Part shown: positions 1,841 through 10,114 of the stretch, piece by piece | Layout of the letters: each line of letters begins with the position of its first letter | How positions within the stretch are numbered: the stretch's first letter is position 1 | NCBI GenBank assembly: GCA_016214445.1 | Contig: JACROM010000092.1 | Span: forward strand, 4,497 to 14,610 | Source of the DNA: Microcaldota archaeon | Lineage (GTDB): Archaea; Micrarchaeota; Micrarchaeia; Norongarragalinales; Norongarragalinaceae | Length of the DNA: 10,114 bases | Direction of reading: 5' to 3' | The notes under the pieces: model-generated | Database searches by the model: none | The model's input: only the letters and a program-made list of their open reading frames with translations | Told to the model about the DNA's origin: nothing | Made by a program: the position numbers and the translations under genes

Positions 1841-2049
1841 CGGGCGGGGTCGGCTAATACTTTTTCAAGAAAAAATCCAGGCCGCTGGCTACTATCACGT
1901 CCTTTTTCTTCTTGAACGACTCAAGCACCTGGTCTTGTTTCTCAGTTGGTTTTTGCCCGTATTTTGCCTCTATGGCCGCATCGCGCGTCACGAAGTCGAT
2001 TTCTACCCCGTTTTCGCTGAAGTACCCTATTACGGGTTTTTCGTCCTTT

Positions 2050-2095
2050 ATAGCAAACCAAGAAAGTTTCCCGACTCTTTTTCTTGGTTTGCTAT
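2050..2095. repeat. Perfect inverted repeat 1 (16-bp arms) inside the broken ATPase
   Basis: atagcaaaccaagaaa (2050-2065) is the exact reverse complement of tttcttggtttgctat (2080-2095), with a 14-nt loop. It forms a strong hairpin in either strand. It lies back to back with a second hairpin at 2097-2141, inside the DUF4143 coding frame. Confidence 0.93.
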
Positions 2096-2096
2096 T

Positions 2097-2141
2097 CAGC
2101 AAGACCGGCCTATTTCGTCGTTTTATTTGCCGGTCTTGCTG
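2097..2141. repeat. Perfect inverted repeat 2 (13-bp arms) inside the broken ATPase
   Basis: cagcaagaccggc (2097-2109) is the exact reverse complement of gccggtcttgctg (2129-2141), with a 19-nt AT-rich loop. It starts two bases after inverted repeat 1. Together they span 92 bp and encode a stretch (QQDRQIKRR...LSWFAI) that interrupts an otherwise family-like sequence, ENLVFLKI + KDEKPVIGYF. Confidence 0.93.
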
Positions 2142-3094
2142 TATCTTCAAAAAAACCAGGTTCTCGTAACTTGCGCCCACATCCTTGCCGCCTGCCGCAA
2201 GATTCTTGATTCCAACATCTCCAGCGTATATTTTCTTTGGGGATGCGATTGATTCATTCAAAGATGCGGCGTATCGGTCCACAACGTGGAATAAGTACGC
2301 TTTCTCAAAATAGCCGACGTATCGTTTGACTGAATCAACTGAGACGCCCAGAATTTTGGATAATTTGTTGTAGCTGGTCGGTTTGCCGACCCGCCTGCAC
2401 AGGAGAGAAAACAGTTCCTTGACCGCTTTTTCGTTCTCTATCTTATGATACGCTATAATGTCCTTGTAGATGATTCCTTCGACGAGTTCGTTCAGGTAGT
2501 CCTCGTCTTCCGTCAACACGTATTGGGGGATGCCGCCCAAGCGCATGTAGTCCTTGAAATAGCCCTCCAGCTTTGCCCTGTCGGCCCTTCCGGCTTCCGC
2601 GTTCCTGAACAGGAGGAATTCCTGAAACGACAGGGGGTTTACTTCATTTTCACGTTGTCATTGTCGAACAGGCTTTTCAGCTCTTTTTCGAAACCATCGC
2701 GCGACGCCACCTCGTCCAGCAGCAGGTAAAAAAAATCCGCCGCCGCCTTCTTGTGCGTTTCCCTGTATTTTTCGACAAGCGCGTGGATCGAGTGGCCCAT
2801 CAGCGGAAACGAATCAAGGTTGATGAAAAACACATCCGCCGGCTTCACGCCTTTTGCCAGCAGCCTTCCAACCAACTGTTTCATTATGGTTGTCTTCCCG
2901 ATCCTTTTCAAGCCGGTCAGGAAGATGATTTCCCTGTTCGCGAGGCCTTTTTCAATCGAGTCGACGTATCCGCTTCTTGGGATGCTCCGCTCCTCGAAAG
3001 GTTTTTCCCACCACGGGTTCTGCCGATAAAGTTCTGCTTCAAGTTCCACGGTATCCCCTTGTGCGACCTTGTTTATAAAGGTTTCGTGCACCAT

Positions 3095-3105
3095 CGTATA
3101 CTTTT
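3095..3105. promoter_or_regulatory. Extra half-site (CGTATACTTTT) next to the start of the broken ATPase
   Basis: The sequence cgtatactttt abuts the ATG at 3094 and matches the arms of the palindrome at 3127-3154 (CGCATACTTT) except for one base. The two same-direction copies start 33 bp apart, close to three helical turns. This pattern would suit cooperative binding of a repressor over the start of the gene. It is inferred from sequence only. Confidence 0.4.
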
Positions 3106-3126
3106 GCCCAAAAGCGTCGTTTGTTG

Positions 3127-3154
3127 TCGCATACTTTGTATGAAAAGTATGCGA
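3127..3154. promoter_or_regulatory. Palindromic candidate operator in the divergent region
   Basis: tcgcatacttt (3127-3137) and aaagtatgcga (3144-3154) are perfect 11-bp inverted arms around a 6-nt spacer. The site covers the expected transcription start of the broken ATPase gene, about 25 nt downstream of the box at 3165-3179. An autorepressor site is the simplest reading. A hairpin in the leader RNA is the alternative. Confidence 0.55.
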
Positions 3155-3164
3155 TACCGTCGGA

Positions 3165-3179
3165 TGATTTTATTTTCGG
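3165..3179 (-). promoter_or_regulatory. Candidate BRE/TATA box for the broken ATPase gene
   Basis: The minus strand reads CCGAAAATAAAATCA: a purine-rich BRE-like CCGAAA followed by an AT-rich box. It lies about 70-85 nt upstream of the ATG at 3094, so the leader would be around 50 nt and would include the 11-bp palindrome. Confidence 0.4.
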
Positions 3180-3202
3180 ATTGGAGAGACGTATATTCTG
3201 AA

Positions 3203-3220
3203 ACGAAAGTATTATATATT
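3203..3220 (+). promoter_or_regulatory. BRE and TATA box for the intact ATPase gene
   Basis: acgaaagt followed by attatatatt (3211-3220) is a good archaeal BRE/TATA arrangement. A start about 25 nt downstream (near 3243) would give a short leader that contains the ribosome-binding site at 3261-3266. Confidence 0.6.
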
Positions 3221-3236
3221 TTAGATTGATCTAAAA
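3219..3236. promoter_or_regulatory. Palindrome overlapping the TATA box of the intact ATPase gene
   Basis: ttttagat (3219-3226) and atctaaaa (3229-3236) are perfect 8-bp arms with a 2-nt spacer. It lies directly between the TATA box and the expected transcription start, where archaeal repressors commonly bind. A second short palindrome, attctagaat, is at 3251-3260. The motif differs from the operator-like site at 3127, so the two divergent genes may be controlled separately. Confidence 0.45.
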
Positions 3237-3260
3237 CTACAGAGTCAAATATTCTAGAAT

Positions 3261-3266
3261 AGGTGG
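3261..3266 (+). promoter_or_regulatory. Shine-Dalgarno site that decides the start at 3272
   Basis: AGGTGG lies five bases before the ATG at 3272 and matches the archaeal anti-SD sequence. The in-frame GTG at 3263 lies inside this site and is therefore unlikely to be the start. Confidence 0.7.
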
Positions 3267-3271
3267 TTTTT

Positions 3272-4558
3272 ATGATTCCGGCGTTTCCGCGAAGTGTTTT
3301 CGGGGAGTTGCTGGCGCAAGCCGGCGAAAGGAAGGTGTCGCTGCTGCTTGGGGCGCGGCAGGTCGGCAAAACCACCCTCCTCGGGCAGCTGCACGGGGAA
3401 CTGTGCCTGAAACGGGGCGCGCCAGGGCTGCTCCTTGACTTGGACGTGTTCAGCAATTTCGAGAAAGTGAGCACGTTCGAACGCCTGTCCAACCTCCTGA
3501 ACGCAAATGGTTTCGGCGGAAAACGGCGGTTCTACCTCTTCCTCGACGAGTTCCAGCGCTACGGCGGCATGACGATGGTGCTGAAAAACGCTTTCGACCA
3601 CCTGGGAAACCTGAAGATTTACGCATCCGGTTCTTCAGCGCTCAAGATAAAGGACGAGGTGCAGGAGTCCCTGGCTGGTAGGAAGAAGACGAACGTCATA
3701 CGCCCGCTGGACTTCCGCGAATTCCTCGAATTCAAGCAACGGACTGGCGCGCTGAACCAGCTCAAAAACACCCGCAAACTCAAAGGGGCGGCACTTGAAA
3801 AGACACTGCCCGAGCTAGCCGGACTGCTCAAGGAGTTCATGATATTCGGCGGATACCCCGCGGTGGTGCTGGCGGAAGGGGAGAAGGCGAAACGCGACGC
3901 CCTCGAAGGCATCTTCGACCTCTACCTGCGCAAGGACCTCGTCGAATACCTGAACGTCAAGAAGATACTTAACGTGAAGAGGCTGGTTGAATTCCTCGCG
4001 GTAAACCACGGCCAAAAAGTCAAGTACGAGGAAGCGGCTGCAGCCTGCGGCCTGACGCAAATCGAAGTGAAAAACTACATGGAAGTGCTCCGGGAGTCGC
4101 ATCTCGTCAGCGTCATGCGCCCGTTCTTCACCAACAAGAACAAGGAGCTAGTCAAGATACCGAAGGTCTATTTCGAGGACAACGGGGTGCGCAACTATTT
4201 CATAAACAACTTCAACCCGCTGGCGCTGAGGCGGGACGCCGGCTTCCTTTTTGAGGGTTTTGCAGTCGGCGAGCTGCTCAAGGGCGGCACACCAGATGAC
4301 GGCATCCGTTTCTGGCAGGACAAGAACAGGCGCGAGGTCGACATAGTGTTGGGCGCAGGGGGCGGGACGGAAACGGCAATCGAGCTGAAGTACAAGAACG
4401 CACCTTCGAAGGATGACGAAACCGGCCTTCGTGCGTTCCTTACCAGCCACCCGGAAGCCAAGAAAGCGTTCCTGGTGAACACGGGAACGCGCAAAACATC
4501 TGGCAAGATAAGGTACGAGCTGCCGTACGGGATCCAAACGCTGTGCGGAAAGAAGTGA
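3272..4558 (+). CDS. Intact AAA ATPase with C-terminal DUF4143 domain
   Basis: A 428-residue cytoplasmic protein of the AAA_14 + DUF4143 type. Walker A GARQVGKT is at residues 27-34, Walker B YLFLDEFQ at 88-95, the sensor-1-like segment ASGSS at 118-122, and LAGR at 134-137. The middle (about 190-310) is mainly helical with a winged-helix-like segment, and the C-terminus has a restriction-endonuclease-like E-VD...ELK pattern (E355, D357, E371, K373). The family is common in archaea and bacteria and is thought to couple ATP hydrolysis to DNA binding. Its biological role is not established; links to toxin-antitoxin or mobile functions are suggestions. It is transcribed away from a broken, only distantly similar member of the same family. 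Its base composition is unusual: two 60-base lines counted by hand give about 67-70% G+C, against 38% in one line of the secreted gene at the left, which could mean a different origin. The start is fixed by the SD site. Confidence 0.9.
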   Translation: MIPAFPRSVFGELLAQAGERKVSLLLGARQVGKTTLLGQLHGELCLKRGAPGLLLDLDVFSNFEKVSTFERLSNLLNANGFGGKRRFYLFLDEFQRYGGMTMVLKNAFDHLGNLKIYASGSSALKIKDEVQESLAGRKKTNVIRPLDFREFLEFKQRTGALNQLKNTRKLKGAALEKTLPELAGLLKEFMIFGGYPAVVLAEGEKAKRDALEGIFDLYLRKDLVEYLNVKKILNVKRLVEFLAVNHGQKVKYEEAAAACGLTQIEVKNYMEVLRESHLVSVMRPFFTNKNKELVKIPKVYFEDNGVRNYFINNFNPLALRRDAGFLFEGFAVGELLKGGTPDDGIRFWQDKNRREVDIVLGAGGGTETAIELKYKNAPSKDDETGLRAFLTSHPEAKKAFLVNTGTRKTSGKIRYELPYGIQTLCGKK

Positions 4559-4652: not shown

Positions 4653-6143
4653 CTAAGCGGTTTTCGTGAAATCGATTTCAGTCGCACCAGTCTTTGTGGC
4701 CGCGAGTTTCTGGTTTCCGCAAACATCCATGGGCCGCCCTGTTGGCTTGCGGTCGTTGCGAATCTCGAAGTGCAAGTGTATTTCTTCCGAATAGCCGGTG
4801 TGTCCTTCCAAGCCGATTGTTTCGTCTTGGGAAACGCGTTGACCCTGCTTCACCCTAACTTCGTTCAGGTGGCCATACAAAGTGGTAATGCGCTTGTCGG
4901 AAGAATGAAGTATCTCGACGGTGTTGCCGTACCCGCCGTTCTGGCTGTTGCCCTGCGCGTTCGTCCCTCCGGAATTAGGCTTAAAACCGTCCACAACGCT
5001 CACCACTATGCCGTCGGCCGCAGCCTTTACAACAGTATCCTGCCGGTTCTGTATGTCAAGGCCGCCATGGTACTCGCGCCGGGGGCTGCCGCGCCAACCG
5101 ACCAAGCTCGTAATGGTTCCCTTCAACGGGCAAATGAAAGAAACCTCGCCGGATGACGGCAAATCGCCCCCTTTCACCGAAGGCGGAATGTAAACCAATG
5201 ACTTGACATACCGCAGGTCGCCGACCGGCATTAAAACATCGCCAATCCTCTTGAAACCGAACTTCTTGGCATCTGGAACAGGCCACTCGTCCAAAGCCTG
5301 CCCCTCCGCAGCATCCTGCACCTCCGGCTTCTTGAACTCCGCGTCAATGCGGGCGAGGAACGAATTGATTGCTTGCTCGGCGTAATTCTTCTTTTTCAAC
5401 GCGGCAGCAACGCGTTCCTTGATTTCATCCAGGCTGTTGGCGCCCTCAATCAACGCTTCCGTGTCCAAGCCAATCTTCTTCAAGTCAAGGAAAACCTTGC
5501 TCTCAAGGACACCCGCCTTCCTCAGCTCGTTCTCGAAGTCGGTCGCGTCAACAACCAGCCTACAGCTTTTGAACGCCAGGGCGTTGTGCTCTTTCGAGTA
5601 AAGTATCTCGCAGTCCTTGTTCAGTTTCATTTCGAAGGTTTCGTCAAGAAGGTGCGCGATGATGTTGACTGCCACTGGAACTGACGCGTCAGTTGCGAAA
5701 ACGTAGGCGTCAGCGCGATTCTTGGTCGAATCGATGAAAACCATGCTGTAGCCGTCGCCGTCCTTGGCAAACGAGTATTTCGCTCCTGTTGTTATGGGCG
5801 TTTTCTGTTCCTTGAGTGTCGGGAAGACGAACTGCTTTGCGGCGGAATAAATCCTCTGGCCGGACTCGCCCGTAACTACATGGAAGGTGACGTAAACCGA
5901 ATCAGGAAGCTCGTCTTCCATGTGCTCGTACACGCCCATCGGCTCCGCCAACAATTGCGGGGCTTTCGCCTGGATGGCGCAATACAACCGAGCCGCAGCT
6001 GCGAGGTTCTCGAGGTCGGAACAGTCCGGCGAATCAACCCCTTTCACCTGGACGGAATACTTGTTGATTTCGAAGAGCGTAGAGGCGTGGGCGCTAACCA
6101 AGGCCGACAAGGCCACGAAAACCAAAACCCAGGACAACTTCAT
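4653..6143 (-). CDS. Secreted M23-family zinc peptidase (LytM-like), second gene of the wall-enzyme operon
   Basis: A 496-residue exported protein. The signal peptide is MKLSWVLVFVALSALVSAHA. About 300 residues of unrecognised sequence follow, with a few Cys and a charged helical stretch around 200-270. A C-terminal M23/LytM domain (about 330-470) then follows. All metal and catalytic positions are present: HGGLD (H359, D363), YGH (H425) and HLH (H456, H458). M23 enzymes are zinc endopeptidases that cut peptide crosslinks, classically in bacterial peptidoglycan. The ATG at 6143 is chosen over an in-frame TTG at 6155 because it places the signal peptide at the N-terminus. It starts 4 nt after the stop of the upstream trifunctional gene, so the two are almost certainly co-transcribed and perhaps translationally coupled. 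The N-terminal part may be a binding or regulatory region. Domain identity is secure; the natural substrate in an archaeon is not known. Confidence 0.9.
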   Translation of the reverse strand: MKLSWVLVFVALSALVSAHASTLFEINKYSVQVKGVDSPDCSDLENLAAAARLYCAIQAKAPQLLAEPMGVYEHMEDELPDSVYVTFHVVTGESGQRIYSAAKQFVFPTLKEQKTPITTGAKYSFAKDGDGYSMVFIDSTKNRADAYVFATDASVPVAVNIIAHLLDETFEMKLNKDCEILYSKEHNALAFKSCRLVVDATDFENELRKAGVLESKVFLDLKKIGLDTEALIEGANSLDEIKERVAAALKKKNYAEQAINSFLARIDAEFKKPEVQDAAEGQALDEWPVPDAKKFGFKRIGDVLMPVGDLRYVKSLVYIPPSVKGGDLPSSGEVSFICPLKGTITSLVGWRGSPRREYHGGLDIQNRQDTVVKAAADGIVVSVVDGFKPNSGGTNAQGNSQNGGYGNTVEILHSSDKRITTLYGHLNEVRVKQGQRVSQDETIGLEGHTGYSEEIHLHFEIRNDRKPTGRPMDVCGNQKLAATKTGATEIDFTKTA

Positions 6144-6147
6144 GACA

Positions 6148-8754
6148 TCAACCAATTTCCATGTTCTTCGATACTTGTGCGACGTACTTTGAAAGCGCGG
6201 CCCTGAACTTCACCACGTGATTCTTGGTTTCGGTATACGGAGGGATGCCGCCATGTCTTTCAACTGCGCCTGGTCCGGCGTTGTAAGCTGCCGCAACCAA
6301 GTCGGTGTTCTTGAACCGTTCGCATTGCGCCTTAAGATATCTTATCCCGCATTTCACGTTCTTTTCAGGGTCGAACAAATCATTGCCGCTAATGCCGCAA
6401 GACCCGCTTGCGGTCGTAGGCATTACTTGCATAAGGCCAACAGCGCCTTTTGGAGACACAGCATTTTCATTACTGCCGCTCTCTATTTCAATCATCGCCG
6501 CAACCAGAGTCACCGAAAGCCCGTACTGTTTCGCGTATTTTTCTATTATCGGGTTCAAAGGCACTCCGCGAGCGGTTTTCAACTGAGAAAGCTTTTCGTT
6601 TTCATTGAAAGGGGGGCATCCGGCAGCCGCTTTTGAAGTTGGCTTTTCCACTTTGGTTGCCTTGACTTCCGCAGCTCCAGGCTCTTTTTTCTGCGTTTCA
6701 GCCTTCGGCCGCTCCTCATCAGGAACGCCCACCCTGACAACGTAGCCGGCCGCCTTCCGCGTTATTCCCTCGTACTCGGTTTCGGCGCCGGAGCCTTTGC
6801 GCTGCGGATTGAAGGAATCGAAGGCGTCCATGCGCTCGCTCAAGAACATCCTCAAAAAGAATCCGGTCGGAGCTTCATCCCTTAGGCGCTTGAGCTTCAG
6901 CTTAACAGCGTAGGCTCCCTTGTAGCTGTTGTCCTTCTCCTCAAAAACGCCCTCATGGAAAGCGACTTGTTCTGCGTAGCCTTCAGGATAAGTCACGCCT
7001 TTCCGCGAGGCAGCGTAGCGCGCCAACGTCTCGGAGCCGCCGCCTTTCAGCCCGCCGTAAGCAGCAAAAGCGACATCGAAAAACTTGTCCTTGGCGCCAT
7101 CGTTCTCGTCAAGGTTGAAGTAAACGCACGCGTAATCGCCCTGTGTGAATTCCCCGGAAGGCTCGTCCGGGCACTCCTCGGATTCCGACCCGCCCGCCAC
7201 AGCGGCTATGCCGGTTTTCTTTTTGCCAGCATCCCCGGTCTCCGCTGATGTTTGCTCGGTGACTGGTTCGGAAGGCGCCTCATCAGACGACGACATTGTT
7301 TGCTGCGCGCCTGAATCATCCTGGCCGTCAGTTGAAACTGTTTCCTGTTGCTCGGACGCGACGCCACCGGCTTTCTTGCACAGGCCGTCGACATCAGACA
7401 GCACCTCGTAACGGCTGTTTTCCTTGTTATAAGCGGCCATTGCGACGTGGACATGAGGAGTCGGAGCTTTGCCGGTCTTTCCGGATAGGCCCAGTGGCGC
7501 ATCCTTCTCGACGGCCTGGCCTTTTTTCACTTTAATCTTGCTCATGTGGCAGTACCAGTACCCGCGCCAGTCCTTGTCGTTTATGTTCTTCCCGTTCGTG
7601 GTAACCAAGACTCCAAGACCGCAGTCGGACTTCTCGTCAGACAGGTATTCGACCACGCCGCCCTCTATTGCCTTAAGCGGAGTGCCAATGCGAAGCTCTA
7701 TGTCCAAAGCGCCGTGAAGCTTGCCGAAAAACACCTTCTTCAGGTAGCCTCCTGCGCCAGTGTCATACTCCTTATGAACGTTCTTGACTGAAGTCTTGAA
7801 AGACCACGAGATGCAGTTCGTCTCACCTTTTCCGTCCGGGTTCTTGCACTTCGGCAACGGCTTGGTTATGGAAACCGGGCACGCCGAGAATTCTGCAACC
7901 GCAGTTGCCGAGGAGCTTTCCGTTAACGCCTCATCATTCGCTTGTTCAGCTTTTGCCGCGGAGCCTGAAAAAGACGGGTGGGGGACGTCCTTGCCGTAGA
8001 TCGTTATGGCTACCGGACCGCCGTTGTTTGACGACACAAGCGAAGACAACCACGAGATGACCGAATTCGGCATCCTTATGCAACCATGGGATGCCGGCTT
8101 GCCCAAATGGGGGTTGCCGTCATCAAACTGGCCATTGCCGTTGGGGGTGCCGTGCATCCAAATACCGCTCGAACCCCAAAAACCAACCTTATAATAAGCG
8201 ACGCCAAAATCCTCCAGGTTCACATAAGTATTGTGTGGATTACGAGGGTCATACTCGCCTACAGTAACTTTTGTGGGGCCAGACAAACAAAAAGTACCTT
8301 CAGGAGTCTTGTGGTCTCTTTCTTTTGTTCTCGGCCCCGGCTCTACTCCGATTTTTCCGTTATTGCCAATGCCAGTTGAAACCGGAACCGGAAAATCAAC
8401 AGGAGAACCAAAATCTTTTTCTTTCACCAGCCTACCGTTCCAGTAAAGGTAGAGTTTTTCAGGCTGCTTCTTGTAAACCTCCAAATACCAACCCTTCCTC
8501 GGGTTGAAGGGCTTAGATTGTCTATTGATGTCCATGCAAATCATTTCGTCAGGAACAGACGCCGGAAGAACTTGCGCGTCCGAGTCGGCAAAACTGGCAG
8601 CAGAAACGAAACCAGTCAGTGGAGTTTCGGAAGCAGGGGAAGCGGAAGAAGGGAAAACAGAAGAGCCTGAAGGTAAAGAAACCTCGGAGTAAGTTACGAG
8701 AAATGCGGCGAGTAAGGCTACTGCAACAAAGGCAAGGAAGAACTGCAGGCGCAT
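6148..8754 (-). CDS. Secreted trifunctional wall enzyme: L,D-transpeptidase (YkuD) + M23 peptidase + lytic transglycosylase (SLT)
   Basis: An 868-residue exported or membrane-anchored protein. A hydrophobic segment at residues 5-22 is a signal peptide or anchor. The YkuD domain (about 88-255) has the catalytic pattern H201...SHGCIR (H223, C225, R227), typical of enzymes that form 3-3 crosslinks or attach proteins to peptidoglycan. The M23/LytM domain (about 290-450) has HGALD (H347, D351), H403 and HVH (H434, H436), so all zinc ligands are present. A Ser/Thr/Glu-rich linker (about 460-530) leads to an unrecognised domain (about 530-680) with a Lys/Glu/Pro linker after it. The C-terminal SLT domain (about 728-868) has the catalytic E758 in IESG, then GLMQVMP and AAYNAGPGA. 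Together these could cut glycan strands and stem peptides and remake crosslinks. The ATG at 8754 is preferred over the more upstream ATG at 8814, because a TATA-like box lies 27-36 nt upstream of it and the signal peptide starts there. First gene of an operon with the M23 peptidase downstream. Confidence 0.92.
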   Translation of the reverse strand: MRLQFFLAFVAVALLAAFLVTYSEVSLPSGSSVFPSSASPASETPLTGFVSAASFADSDAQVLPASVPDEMICMDINRQSKPFNPRKGWYLEVYKKQPEKLYLYWNGRLVKEKDFGSPVDFPVPVSTGIGNNGKIGVEPGPRTKERDHKTPEGTFCLSGPTKVTVGEYDPRNPHNTYVNLEDFGVAYYKVGFWGSSGIWMHGTPNGNGQFDDGNPHLGKPASHGCIRMPNSVISWLSSLVSSNNGGPVAITIYGKDVPHPSFSGSAAKAEQANDEALTESSSATAVAEFSACPVSITKPLPKCKNPDGKGETNCISWSFKTSVKNVHKEYDTGAGGYLKKVFFGKLHGALDIELRIGTPLKAIEGGVVEYLSDEKSDCGLGVLVTTNGKNINDKDWRGYWYCHMSKIKVKKGQAVEKDAPLGLSGKTGKAPTPHVHVAMAAYNKENSRYEVLSDVDGLCKKAGGVASEQQETVSTDGQDDSGAQQTMSSSDEAPSEPVTEQTSAETGDAGKKKTGIAAVAGGSESEECPDEPSGEFTQGDYACVYFNLDENDGAKDKFFDVAFAAYGGLKGGGSETLARYAASRKGVTYPEGYAEQVAFHEGVFEEKDNSYKGAYAVKLKLKRLRDEAPTGFFLRMFLSERMDAFDSFNPQRKGSGAETEYEGITRKAAGYVVRVGVPDEERPKAETQKKEPGAAEVKATKVEKPTSKAAAGCPPFNENEKLSQLKTARGVPLNPIIEKYAKQYGLSVTLVAAMIEIESGSNENAVSPKGAVGLMQVMPTTASGSCGISGNDLFDPEKNVKCGIRYLKAQCERFKNTDLVAAAYNAGPGAVERHGGIPPYTETKNHVVKFRAALSKYVAQVSKNMEIG

Positions 8755-8867: not shown

Positions 8868-9182
8868 TTAGAGAATTGCAACTCCCTTGGCCTTGGCCTC
8901 TTTTAGAACAGCCGGTTTGTCCTTGGGGTTGACAACCAAGGCGTGAAGAACAAGGCCTTTGTCAAGGAGCGCGAACAACTGCGGTTCCAAAATCTCGTAA
9001 GCCTGCTTCGAGGAAAGGCGAGTCTTCGGGATGATCAGCAAGTCAACATCGCTCTCAAAAGGAACAGCCGAGTTGTTCACTATGGAACCAAAAAAATAAG
9101 CCCGCTTAACCTTGCCGCGCAAAGCCTTCTTTATTTCCGAAACAACCCTCGGAATGTCCTTAAGCCCGAACGTTTTTTTCAT
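8868..9182 (-). CDS. Minimal nucleotidyltransferase (MNT), antitoxin partner of the HEPN protein
   Basis: A 104-residue cytoplasmic protein of the minimal nucleotidyltransferase (Pol beta) fold. The core motif is FFGS (G32, S33) with S-D-V-D (D45, D47) and a hydrophobic strand after it. In known HEPN/MNT pairs the MNT neutralises the HEPN RNase, in studied cases by transferring AMP to it. The start at 9182 is preferred over the long upstream extension to 9350 because it begins a normal MNT N-terminus and overlaps the HEPN stop as ATGA, typical of translationally coupled toxin-antitoxin genes. The third acidic residue expected on the next core strand is not obvious: that strand reads LVLHALVV. 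The enzyme may therefore be altered or inactive and act by binding only. Confidence 0.82.
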   Translation of the reverse strand: MKKTFGLKDIPRVVSEIKKALRGKVKRAYFFGSIVNNSAVPFESDVDLLIIPKTRLSSKQAYEILEPQLFALLDKGLVLHALVVNPKDKPAVLKEAKAKGVAIL

Positions 9183-9538
9183 GCCGTCACCTTTTTCAAA
9201 AAGTCGTAGTACAGTTTCTCCAAAGAATCTAAATCGGATTCGGATACGGTGGGAACAACGCCATAATCGCCGCCCTCCCTTAAAGACTGCATGCGGGAAA
9301 GCTTGCTCAACCACTCCGGCGGTATTGCAAGTTTTTCTTTCAACGCCCACAACTTGGCAACCAAACCGGCATGAGTTTTGGGTGGTGCCTCGCCAGCTTC
9401 ATCCAAAATAGCCAAACCGACGTGGAGCAAAGCATAATAGCCCCTGGAAAAAGCGTCCTCCAACAATTTTTTTCCGCGCAATATACGATACGCTTCAAAC
9501 GCCTTCTTTGCCCGTTCAACATGCTCCTTCGACGCCAT
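9179..9538 (-). CDS. HEPN-domain protein (UPF0332-like), likely toxin of a HEPN/MNT pair
   Basis: A 119-residue all-helical protein. Diagnostic motifs are SRGYYALLH (residues 31-39), KTHAGLV (54-60) and REGGDY (87-92), which match the UPF0332/COG1895 HEPN group. HEPN proteins with such partners are usually RNases or RNA-binding toxins. The Arg of REGGDY with the conserved Tyr is the best candidate for the active or modified site, by analogy only. The ATG at 9538 is preferred over 9583: the sequence before it (NSKPFYPSFEL...) overlaps the promoter box and the cbf5 stop, and the box at 9558-9579 lies 20-41 nt upstream, giving a near-leaderless mRNA. It overlaps the MNT gene by 4 nt. The pair is flanked by 22-bp direct repeats. 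Confidence 0.85.
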   Translation of the reverse strand: MASKEHVERAKKAFEAYRILRGKKLLEDAFSRGYYALLHVGLAILDEAGEAPPKTHAGLVAKLWALKEKLAIPPEWLSKLSRMQSLREGGDYGVVPTVSESDLDSLEKLYYDFLKKVTA

Positions 9539-9557
9539 TAATAGAATTAGCTCAAAG

Positions 9558-9579
9558 GAGGGATAAAAAGGCTTTGAAT
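9558..9579 (-). promoter_or_regulatory. Promoter of the HEPN/MNT pair, copy of a 22-bp direct repeat
   Basis: Identical over 22 bp to 8776-8797. It starts on the base right after the cbf5 stop codon. The TATA-like CCTTTTTAT core is placed as expected for a transcript starting at about the ATG at 9538. Confidence 0.6.
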
Positions 9580-10114
9580 TCAAGCCGGCTGTTCCGGTTT
9601 GCCGTACAAGTCATGCGGCCGGATTACGCGCGAAATGTCGAATGCGATTCCCTTCTTGCGGGAGGAGATTTCATCAGAGGAAAGAAGCGCGGTGGCGAGG
9701 CACAGGAGTTCGCCTTTTCCGGAAAGGATTTTGACCGGCTCGTCCTTCCGTATGTTCTCGTCAAGGGAGAGGATGCCGGGAATCGCCAGGTTCGCGCCTG
9801 TTGTTATCGGTTTAATGGCGCCGTCCGAAACAACAACCCTCTTAAGCTTGACCGCTTCCTCAACTGGAACCAGGATCTTCCTCAACTCGCTTCCGTCGCC
9901 GTGCTCCTTCCACAGCCAAAAGGCATCGGACAAGTCCTGCAAAGTGAATGCCTGGTCCTCGGTGAATCCAGCGGAAACAGTGCGGCGAAGTTCGGCCATA
10001 AGCCCTCCGCACCCCAGCACCTCGCCGGCATCGTGGCAAAGCTTCCGGATGTAGGTGCCGGCTTCAACCTCGGTCTCGAAAAGAACGAAGTTGCCCTCGT
10101 TCTCCAAGACCTTG
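9580..10114 (-). CDS. cbf5: Cbf5, archaeal H/ACA pseudouridine synthase, C-terminal part
   Basis: The 5' end lies beyond the right edge, and the visible frame reads through it. Visible are the end of the TruB-type catalytic domain (GTYIRKLCHDAG, MAELRR) and a C-terminal PUA domain (GANLAIPGI...KGELLCLA). These match archaeal Cbf5, the catalytic subunit of the H/ACA RNP with Nop10, Gar1 and L7Ae, which isomerises uridines in rRNA and can act on tRNA U55. The order EAGTYIR-LC, AELRRT, WKEHGD and the PUA segment is archaeal/eukaryotic in style, not bacterial TruB. It ends in TGA at 9580, immediately before the HEPN promoter. This is the best clue to the domain of the organism. The catalytic Asp lies outside the window. 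Confidence 0.93.
   Translation of the reverse strand, partial: KVLENEGNFVLFETEVEAGTYIRKLCHDAGEVLGCGGLMAELRRTVSAGFTEDQAFTLQDLSDAFWLWKEHGDGSELRKILVPVEEAVKLKRVVVSDGAIKPITTGANLAIPGILSLDENIRKDEPVKILSGKGELLCLATALLSSDEISSRKKGIAFDISRVIRPHDLYGKPEQPA

Follow-up and report, generated by a model that had tools for sequence, protein, structure and literature searches.

Enzymes directed at peptidoglycan are already known from archaea. A survey of 3,706 archaeal genomes recorded modular peptidoglycan hydrolases in 175, and bacteria are killed by two such enzymes from haloarchaea (PMC12352652); the view that enzymes of this sort have no place in an archaeon is outdated. Large proteins with transglycosylase domains have been described from Pacearchaeota and Woesearchaeota (PMC8204110, PMC9723730), and an extracellular, lysostaphin-like M23B peptidase from Ca. 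Norongarragalina meridionalis, for which predation, parasitism or defence was suggested (PMC8561730). Among bacterial enzymes, Tlde1a, an effector of type VI secretion, is lethal to bacteria and acts on the ends of tetrapeptides by trimming and exchange (PMC9638812).

The locus described here lies within a window of 10,114 nucleotides, the whole stretch of DNA analysed, and its features are listed in Table 1. The gene order on the minus strand is cbf5, HEPN, MNT, hydrolase A and hydrolase B. Hydrolase A starts with the ATG at 8754 and ends with the stop codon at 6150-6148; the ATG of hydrolase B lies 4 nt past this stop, and the ORF of hydrolase B also has a TTG at 6155.

Table 1. Features of the hydrolase locus and of a possible second chromosomal slot (window positions, except where a locus is named).
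Feature	Position	Strand	Basis
Hydrolase A, YkuD-M23-X-SLT, 868 aa, predicted exported	6148..8754	minus	ORF list and Pfam
Hydrophobic N-terminal export signal or anchor of A, residues 1-25	8680..8754	minus	Hydropathy
YkuD L,D-transpeptidase domain, residues 90-242	8029..8487	minus	Pfam and residues
M23 metallopeptidase domain of A, residues 346-441	7432..7719	minus	Pfam and residues; lysostaphin among PDB relatives
Lineage-specific domain X, residues 531-677; all-beta fold predicted (low confidence)	6724..7164	minus	Alignment and model
SLT lytic transglycosylase domain, residues 737-840	6235..6546	minus	Pfam and PDB relatives
Hydrolase B, Nd-M23, predicted exported (hydrophobic N-terminus)	4653..6143	minus	ORF list, Pfam and junction
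Nd domain of B, common to the N-termini of the g2 enzymes	5520..6098	minus	Alignment
M23 domain of B	4743..5072	minus	Pfam, 2.1e-21
Cbf5, C-terminal part (TruB_C_2 and PUA), cut by contig end; upstream landmark	9580..10113	minus	Pfam, relatives and synteny
GCD14-hydrolase loci	L041:8099-10031, L049:5490-7103, L047:9857-12002, L046:1521-3476, L038:12445-15615, L036:5846-8991

The presence of YkuD, M23 and SLT in one chain, each with its catalytic residues kept, was confirmed by Pfam scores over the curated cut-offs and by inspection of the residues. The YkuD domain (PF03734; E 1.8e-15, 58.2 bits against a cut-off of 23.4) carries H201 and S222-H-G-C225-I-R. Its spacer from the histidine to SHGC is 20 residues long and exceeds the 14-17 that PMC9638812 quotes for the YkuD-type family, counted from His to (S/T)HGC; the profile match stands, and in a Micrarchaeia YkuD protein (G039) the spacer is 12. 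The M23 domain of hydrolase A (PF01551; E 1.8e-14, 54.1 bits against 28.7) has complete motifs, namely H347xxxD351, H403 and H434xH436, and that of hydrolase B scores 76.4 bits. The SLT domain (PF01464; E 1.5e-27, 95.9 bits against 21.3) displays E758 in an ES motif, GLMQVMP at 773 and AAYNAGPG at 822, and E758 aligns on E478 of Slt70, the catalytic glutamate of that enzyme. Relatives in the PDB by sequence include lysostaphin in the case of M23 and, in that of SLT, MltC and Slt70. The enzymatic activity of hydrolase A and its substrate are predictions from sequence.

The length of the chain agrees with the original prediction, and its secretion is suggested by the N-terminus, where the hydrophobic stretch begins at residue 3 with a mean Kyte-Doolittle value of 2.5; the hydropathy scan revealed no further stretch above 1.6 in the rest of the protein. 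The modular archaeal peptidoglycan hydrolases of PMC12352652 are defined as being secreted and acting on bacteria; of this, hydrolase A shows the hydrophobic N-terminus. A Pfam search with E up to 0.1 detected no known wall-binding domain in hydrolase A, in which X is unclassified. No second protein with YkuD, M23 and SLT occurred among the 120 listed of 248 matches. A scan of named genomes returned six loci, all bacterial, and in each of them the SLT part alone was matched.

The HEPN gene and the MNT-type nucleotidyltransferase gene (8868-9583, minus strand) overlap at their ends; the two separate cbf5 from the hydrolases and resemble a toxin-antitoxin pair. On the other side of the hydrolases, AAA_14/DUF4143 ATPases are found on both strands at 1854-4558, the one at 1854-3094 being divided over two ORFs of 230 and 151 aa. 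Two large ORFs flank a run of N, at 1-1668 of the window (minus strand) and at L003:1699-4428 (minus strand); in the former nothing reaches a Pfam cut-off, and it carries short GSR-type repeats in a run at its N-terminus, and the latter has a hydrophobic C-terminus.

The genome (1.29 Mb in 140 contigs, estimated contamination 0.69%) is 72% complete, which renders absences in it weak. Its RpoB', encoded on a 21-kb contig (C44), points to a place in Micrarchaeota near Norongarragalinales, since Candidatus Micrarchaeota (80%) and also Candidatus Norongarragalinales (72%) appear under the named ones among the 120 listed of 7324 matches; these taxon names rest on matches to C44, not to the contig of the window (C74). 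On C44, rpoB seems split (L051:2-2907), and an intein-like end is seen in the reading frame that precedes rpoB'. The Cbf5 of C74, put forward originally as an archaeal sign, was confirmed in its C-terminal part and has its nearest relatives in another genus (g2) of the same family, represented by G001 (76%), G008 (74%) and G010 (72%).

That C74 is a bacterial contig or phage fragment contaminating the bin is hardly credible. The bin does contain a 3.5-kb contig (C8, L063) with a second archaeal rpoB'/rpoA1, deviating in composition and with an rpoB' 72% identical to that of C44, and thus appears slightly mixed in spite of its low contamination estimate. However, the tetranucleotide correlation of C74 is 0.94 with C44 and 0.92 with C37 as compared to 0.65 with C8, which makes C74 probably native and C8 a probable foreign contig; gene A alone gives 0.88 and gene B 0.80 against C44. 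The contamination reading was rejected on this composition, on the identity of Cbf5 to that of three genomes of the family and on the presence of the same locus in those genomes, and the claim of an archaeal, non-chimeric contig is upheld.

The conservation of the locus was traced by tblastn in 24 loci of the order, comprising the own contig and 23 stretches from a sample of 28 other genomes (24 with a Cbf5 match, G022 left out). Twelve of these 24 loci have both cbf5 and the uS13 gene. In the three g2 genomes a peptidoglycan hydrolase sits between them, with distances between the alignment ends of 4177 bp (G001), 3441 bp (G008) and 4838 bp (G010). In the remaining nine (G002, G004, G007, G011, G012, G014, G015, G017 and G023) the two genes lie 195-1744 bp apart, and the hydrolase queries found no match on the stretch. 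The other 12 loci, the own one included, are without uS13 on the stretch, as the contig ends or different genes follow cbf5. The hydrolase starts less than 40 bp from cbf5 in G010 and G008, which leaves no HEPN/MNT pair at those loci; in G001 the gap is 0.7 kb. In the simplest reading, the locus would have been gained once, downstream of cbf5, ahead of the split between the genera g1 and g2.

The enzymes of this locus differ in composition. G001 encodes Nd-M23-X-Amidase_3-SLT (997 aa), and G010 encodes Nd, M23 in two stretches, X, a weak CHAP match below cut-off, Amidase_2 and SLT (1460 aa). In G008, Nd-M23-X and the start of Amidase_3 lie in one frame and the remainder of Amidase_3 with SLT in the next; this gene (L037:7743-10726, minus strand) is interrupted by a frame break within the amidase domain and may be decaying or misassembled. 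The own genome combines YkuD-M23-X-SLT in hydrolase A with Nd-M23 as the separate hydrolase B. The third enzyme thus differs between hydrolase A and the g2 versions, while X and Nd are constant. X and Nd each occur in four of 242 Micrarchaeia genomes, the same four, and have no Pfam match in the proteins scanned; their structure models are weak (pLDDT 62 for X, 64 for Nd) and the folds point nowhere firmly. X, and the Nd of hydrolase B, are the best candidates for binding a wall or surface.

The catalytic modules are distributed unevenly. Of 246 Micrarchaeia genomes, 53 have an SLT match over cut-off, and in the own family 4 of 11 do; its non-detection in the other seven suggests that the trait is dispensable. 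YkuD is matched in 4 of 60 genomes, the own included, and in none of the ten others of the family; the YkuD proteins of the other three genomes have no second Pfam domain, and the g2 enzymes show no YkuD. The single SLT match, the single YkuD match and both M23 matches of the own genome all fall within hydrolases A and B. An SLT tree was built from 119 columns and 129 of 131 rows past the length filter (the SLT rows of G021 and G018 being dropped), with 50 of 123 inner branches open. Its ten Micrarchaeia rows require six changes, of which well-supported branches force only two. G010 groups with the SLT of the second locus of G008 (97/90) and G008b with P0032 (100/96), and the SLT of hydrolase A takes an unsupported position. 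Exchange of the SLT module, rather than vertical descent, is therefore likely, in a weakly resolved tree. Polymorphic toxin systems swap C-terminal toxins on a fixed carrier beside an immunity gene; here X and Nd are constant, and the exchanged modules are not confined to the C-terminus.

A possible second slot became apparent at a GCD14/TrmI-type methyltransferase gene (one copy matched by Pfam, 2.4e-23), present in 8 of 16 loci; the 16 were fetched for their hydrolase matches, and the true rate of linkage is not given by this fraction. In six of the eight, from three families, hydrolase genes of varying make-up directly follow it: SLT then M23 in G013, SLT in G018, M74-SLT in G015 and G028, M23 then M23-SLT in G008, and two M23 genes in G010. 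In G024 and G020 the gene lies near hydrolases, not adjoining them. Pfam is the basis of these calls for G013, G028 and the 436-aa protein of G008, the SLT search for G018, close likeness to G028 for G015, and BLAST matches to M23 parts for the 352-aa protein of G008 and both proteins of G010.

Whether the producer possesses a wall of its own bears directly on the substrate. A SEDS polymerase was detected in none of 60 genomes (the own and 59 relatives), with 10 of 14 controls positive. Mur_ligase_M was matched in 30 of the 60; the own copy, the one identified, is FolC (NCBIfam 323.5 bits against a cut-off of 162.65) and the only such match of its genome. An autolysin of an own murein wall would presuppose a murein polymerase and Mur ligases in the producer, which neither search showed in this 72% complete genome. 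The lineage is apparently without sign of a bacterial-type wall in these searches, in agreement with the original expectation of an archaeon without murein of its own. Its alternative, that the hydrolases remodel a murein-like polymer of the archaeon itself, gained no support and is very improbable; the conserved chromosomal place beside housekeeping genes speaks for it, and the SEDS result, the FolC identity and the patchy occurrence of SLT in the family speak against it. The reading was set aside on the SEDS and Mur ligase searches.

As the archaeon apparently does not produce murein, the target is most likely that of bacteria, outside the archaeal cell. Each version of the enzyme joins one activity against glycan strands, one against peptides and a third that varies, so murein is the obvious common substrate. 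It is held with moderate confidence that hydrolase A is an exported, multi-catalytic enzyme acting on the murein of neighbouring bacteria, from a locus gained once in which X and Nd stayed constant and modules were exchanged. SLT would cut the glycan strands and M23 the peptide cross-links, and YkuD might trim or exchange residues on tetrapeptide stems, as in Tlde1, or make 3-3 links; the enzyme modules would have been swapped after the locus was gained behind cbf5. Against this explanation stand the Gram-negative outer membrane, which would block hydrolase A without a delivery system, the lack of a known wall-binding Pfam domain, the weak models of X and Nd, the long YkuD spacer, the incompleteness of the genome behind its absences, the non-detection of SLT in seven genomes of the family and the frame break of G008. 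Of the role foreseen originally, action on bacterial murein is most likely, and symbiosis, predation and fusion are conjecture.

Use against living bacteria rather than debris is our inference. Digestion of the murein of dead bacteria as food, with no killing, is unlikely. A three-activity enzyme would fit complete digestion, Norongarragalinales have been proposed as less host-dependent (PMC12892359) and the text of PMC12352652 leaves scavenging open; module exchange at one locus resembles an arms race more than steady nutrition. Less probable still is the use of the enzyme by an epibiont or periplasmic archaeon to open the wall of a bacterial host, YkuD resealing or marking it as in predatory bacteria. 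Secreted wall enzymes take part in the invasion by Bdellovibrio (PMC10127604, PMC3276566), and the union of cutters and an L,D-transpeptidase-type domain within one chain would suit this purpose. The rarity of YkuD in the 60 genomes, its absence from the ten others of the family and the g2 versions without it argue against such a tool. To our knowledge, moreover, Micrarchaeota are not known to live on bacterial hosts. The evidence does not distinguish between a weapon, a feeding aid and a host-wall tool. For YkuD, trimming and exchange as by Tlde1a have the best precedent, and wall resealing in the way of predatory bacteria is the bolder option.

Tentatively, and with more doubt than confidence, two dedicated chromosomal slots, one following cbf5 in two genera and the other following the GCD14/TrmI-type gene in several families, may load and swap bacterial-type wall enzymes, the first slot around an X/Nd chassis. 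This would be an archaeal counterpart of polymorphic antibacterial weapons, with a vertical chassis and cassettes turning over, YkuD acting here as a D-amino-acid exchange toxin or resealer.

The findings suggest that a DPANN lineage may hold on to enzymes against bacterial walls rather than acquire them in passing, as a position beside a core gene is kept in two genera while the enzymes change. The differently assembled versions at this position in some relatives suggest a long-kept tool for attacking or feeding on bacteria. The interaction of archaea and bacteria in Micrarchaeota thereby becomes testable with a few defined proteins. A survey demanding a known binding domain (PMC12352652) would probably miss this group, since X and Nd have no Pfam match.

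The kind of enzyme is already known, and the three-enzyme chain, the conserved locus and the module exchange around X/Nd were not found described. The literature covered, which excluded bioRxiv, most subscription journals and supplements, gave no account of this locus or of a protein uniting YkuD, M23 and SLT in that order; the main text of PMC12352652 does not mention Micrarchaeota, YkuD or SLT, and that of PMC12892359, on Micrarchaeota evolution, contains neither "peptidoglycan" nor "murein". Two long chains among the matches, P0068 and P0112, combine SLT and M23 as in hydrolase A, have no YkuD in the precomputed Pfam lists and may, at a guess, be phage proteins; 9b45, a phage tape-measure chain, likewise bears SLT in a long chain. 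NCBIfam NF052336, presumably the Halogranum salarium enzyme by its name, gives matches to the M23 parts of hydrolases A (1e-7) and B (2.1e-15) that fall well short of its cut-off.

Tlde1a shares the L,D-transpeptidase-type fold, used there against bacteria, but is an injected effector with a spacer of 14-17 residues (PMC9638812). The proteins of Pacearchaeota and Woesearchaeota resemble hydrolase A in their DPANN origin, their transglycosylase and the proposal that they attack bacterial walls or attach to them; they belong to other DPANN lineages, and the relevant passages name no fused M23, YkuD or amidase (PMC8204110, PMC9723730). The M23B of Ca. Norongarragalina meridionalis comes from the same order, as far as RpoB' tells, and is the single enzyme mentioned, with no SLT, YkuD or locus named in that account (PMC8561730). 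Woldo and Danwoldo of H. salarium are likewise archaeal M23 enzymes with domain shuffling, but consist of M23 and two PG_binding_1 domains and are patchy and often plasmid-borne (PMC12352652), whereas hydrolase A has no known binding domain and unites three catalytic domains at a conserved chromosomal locus.
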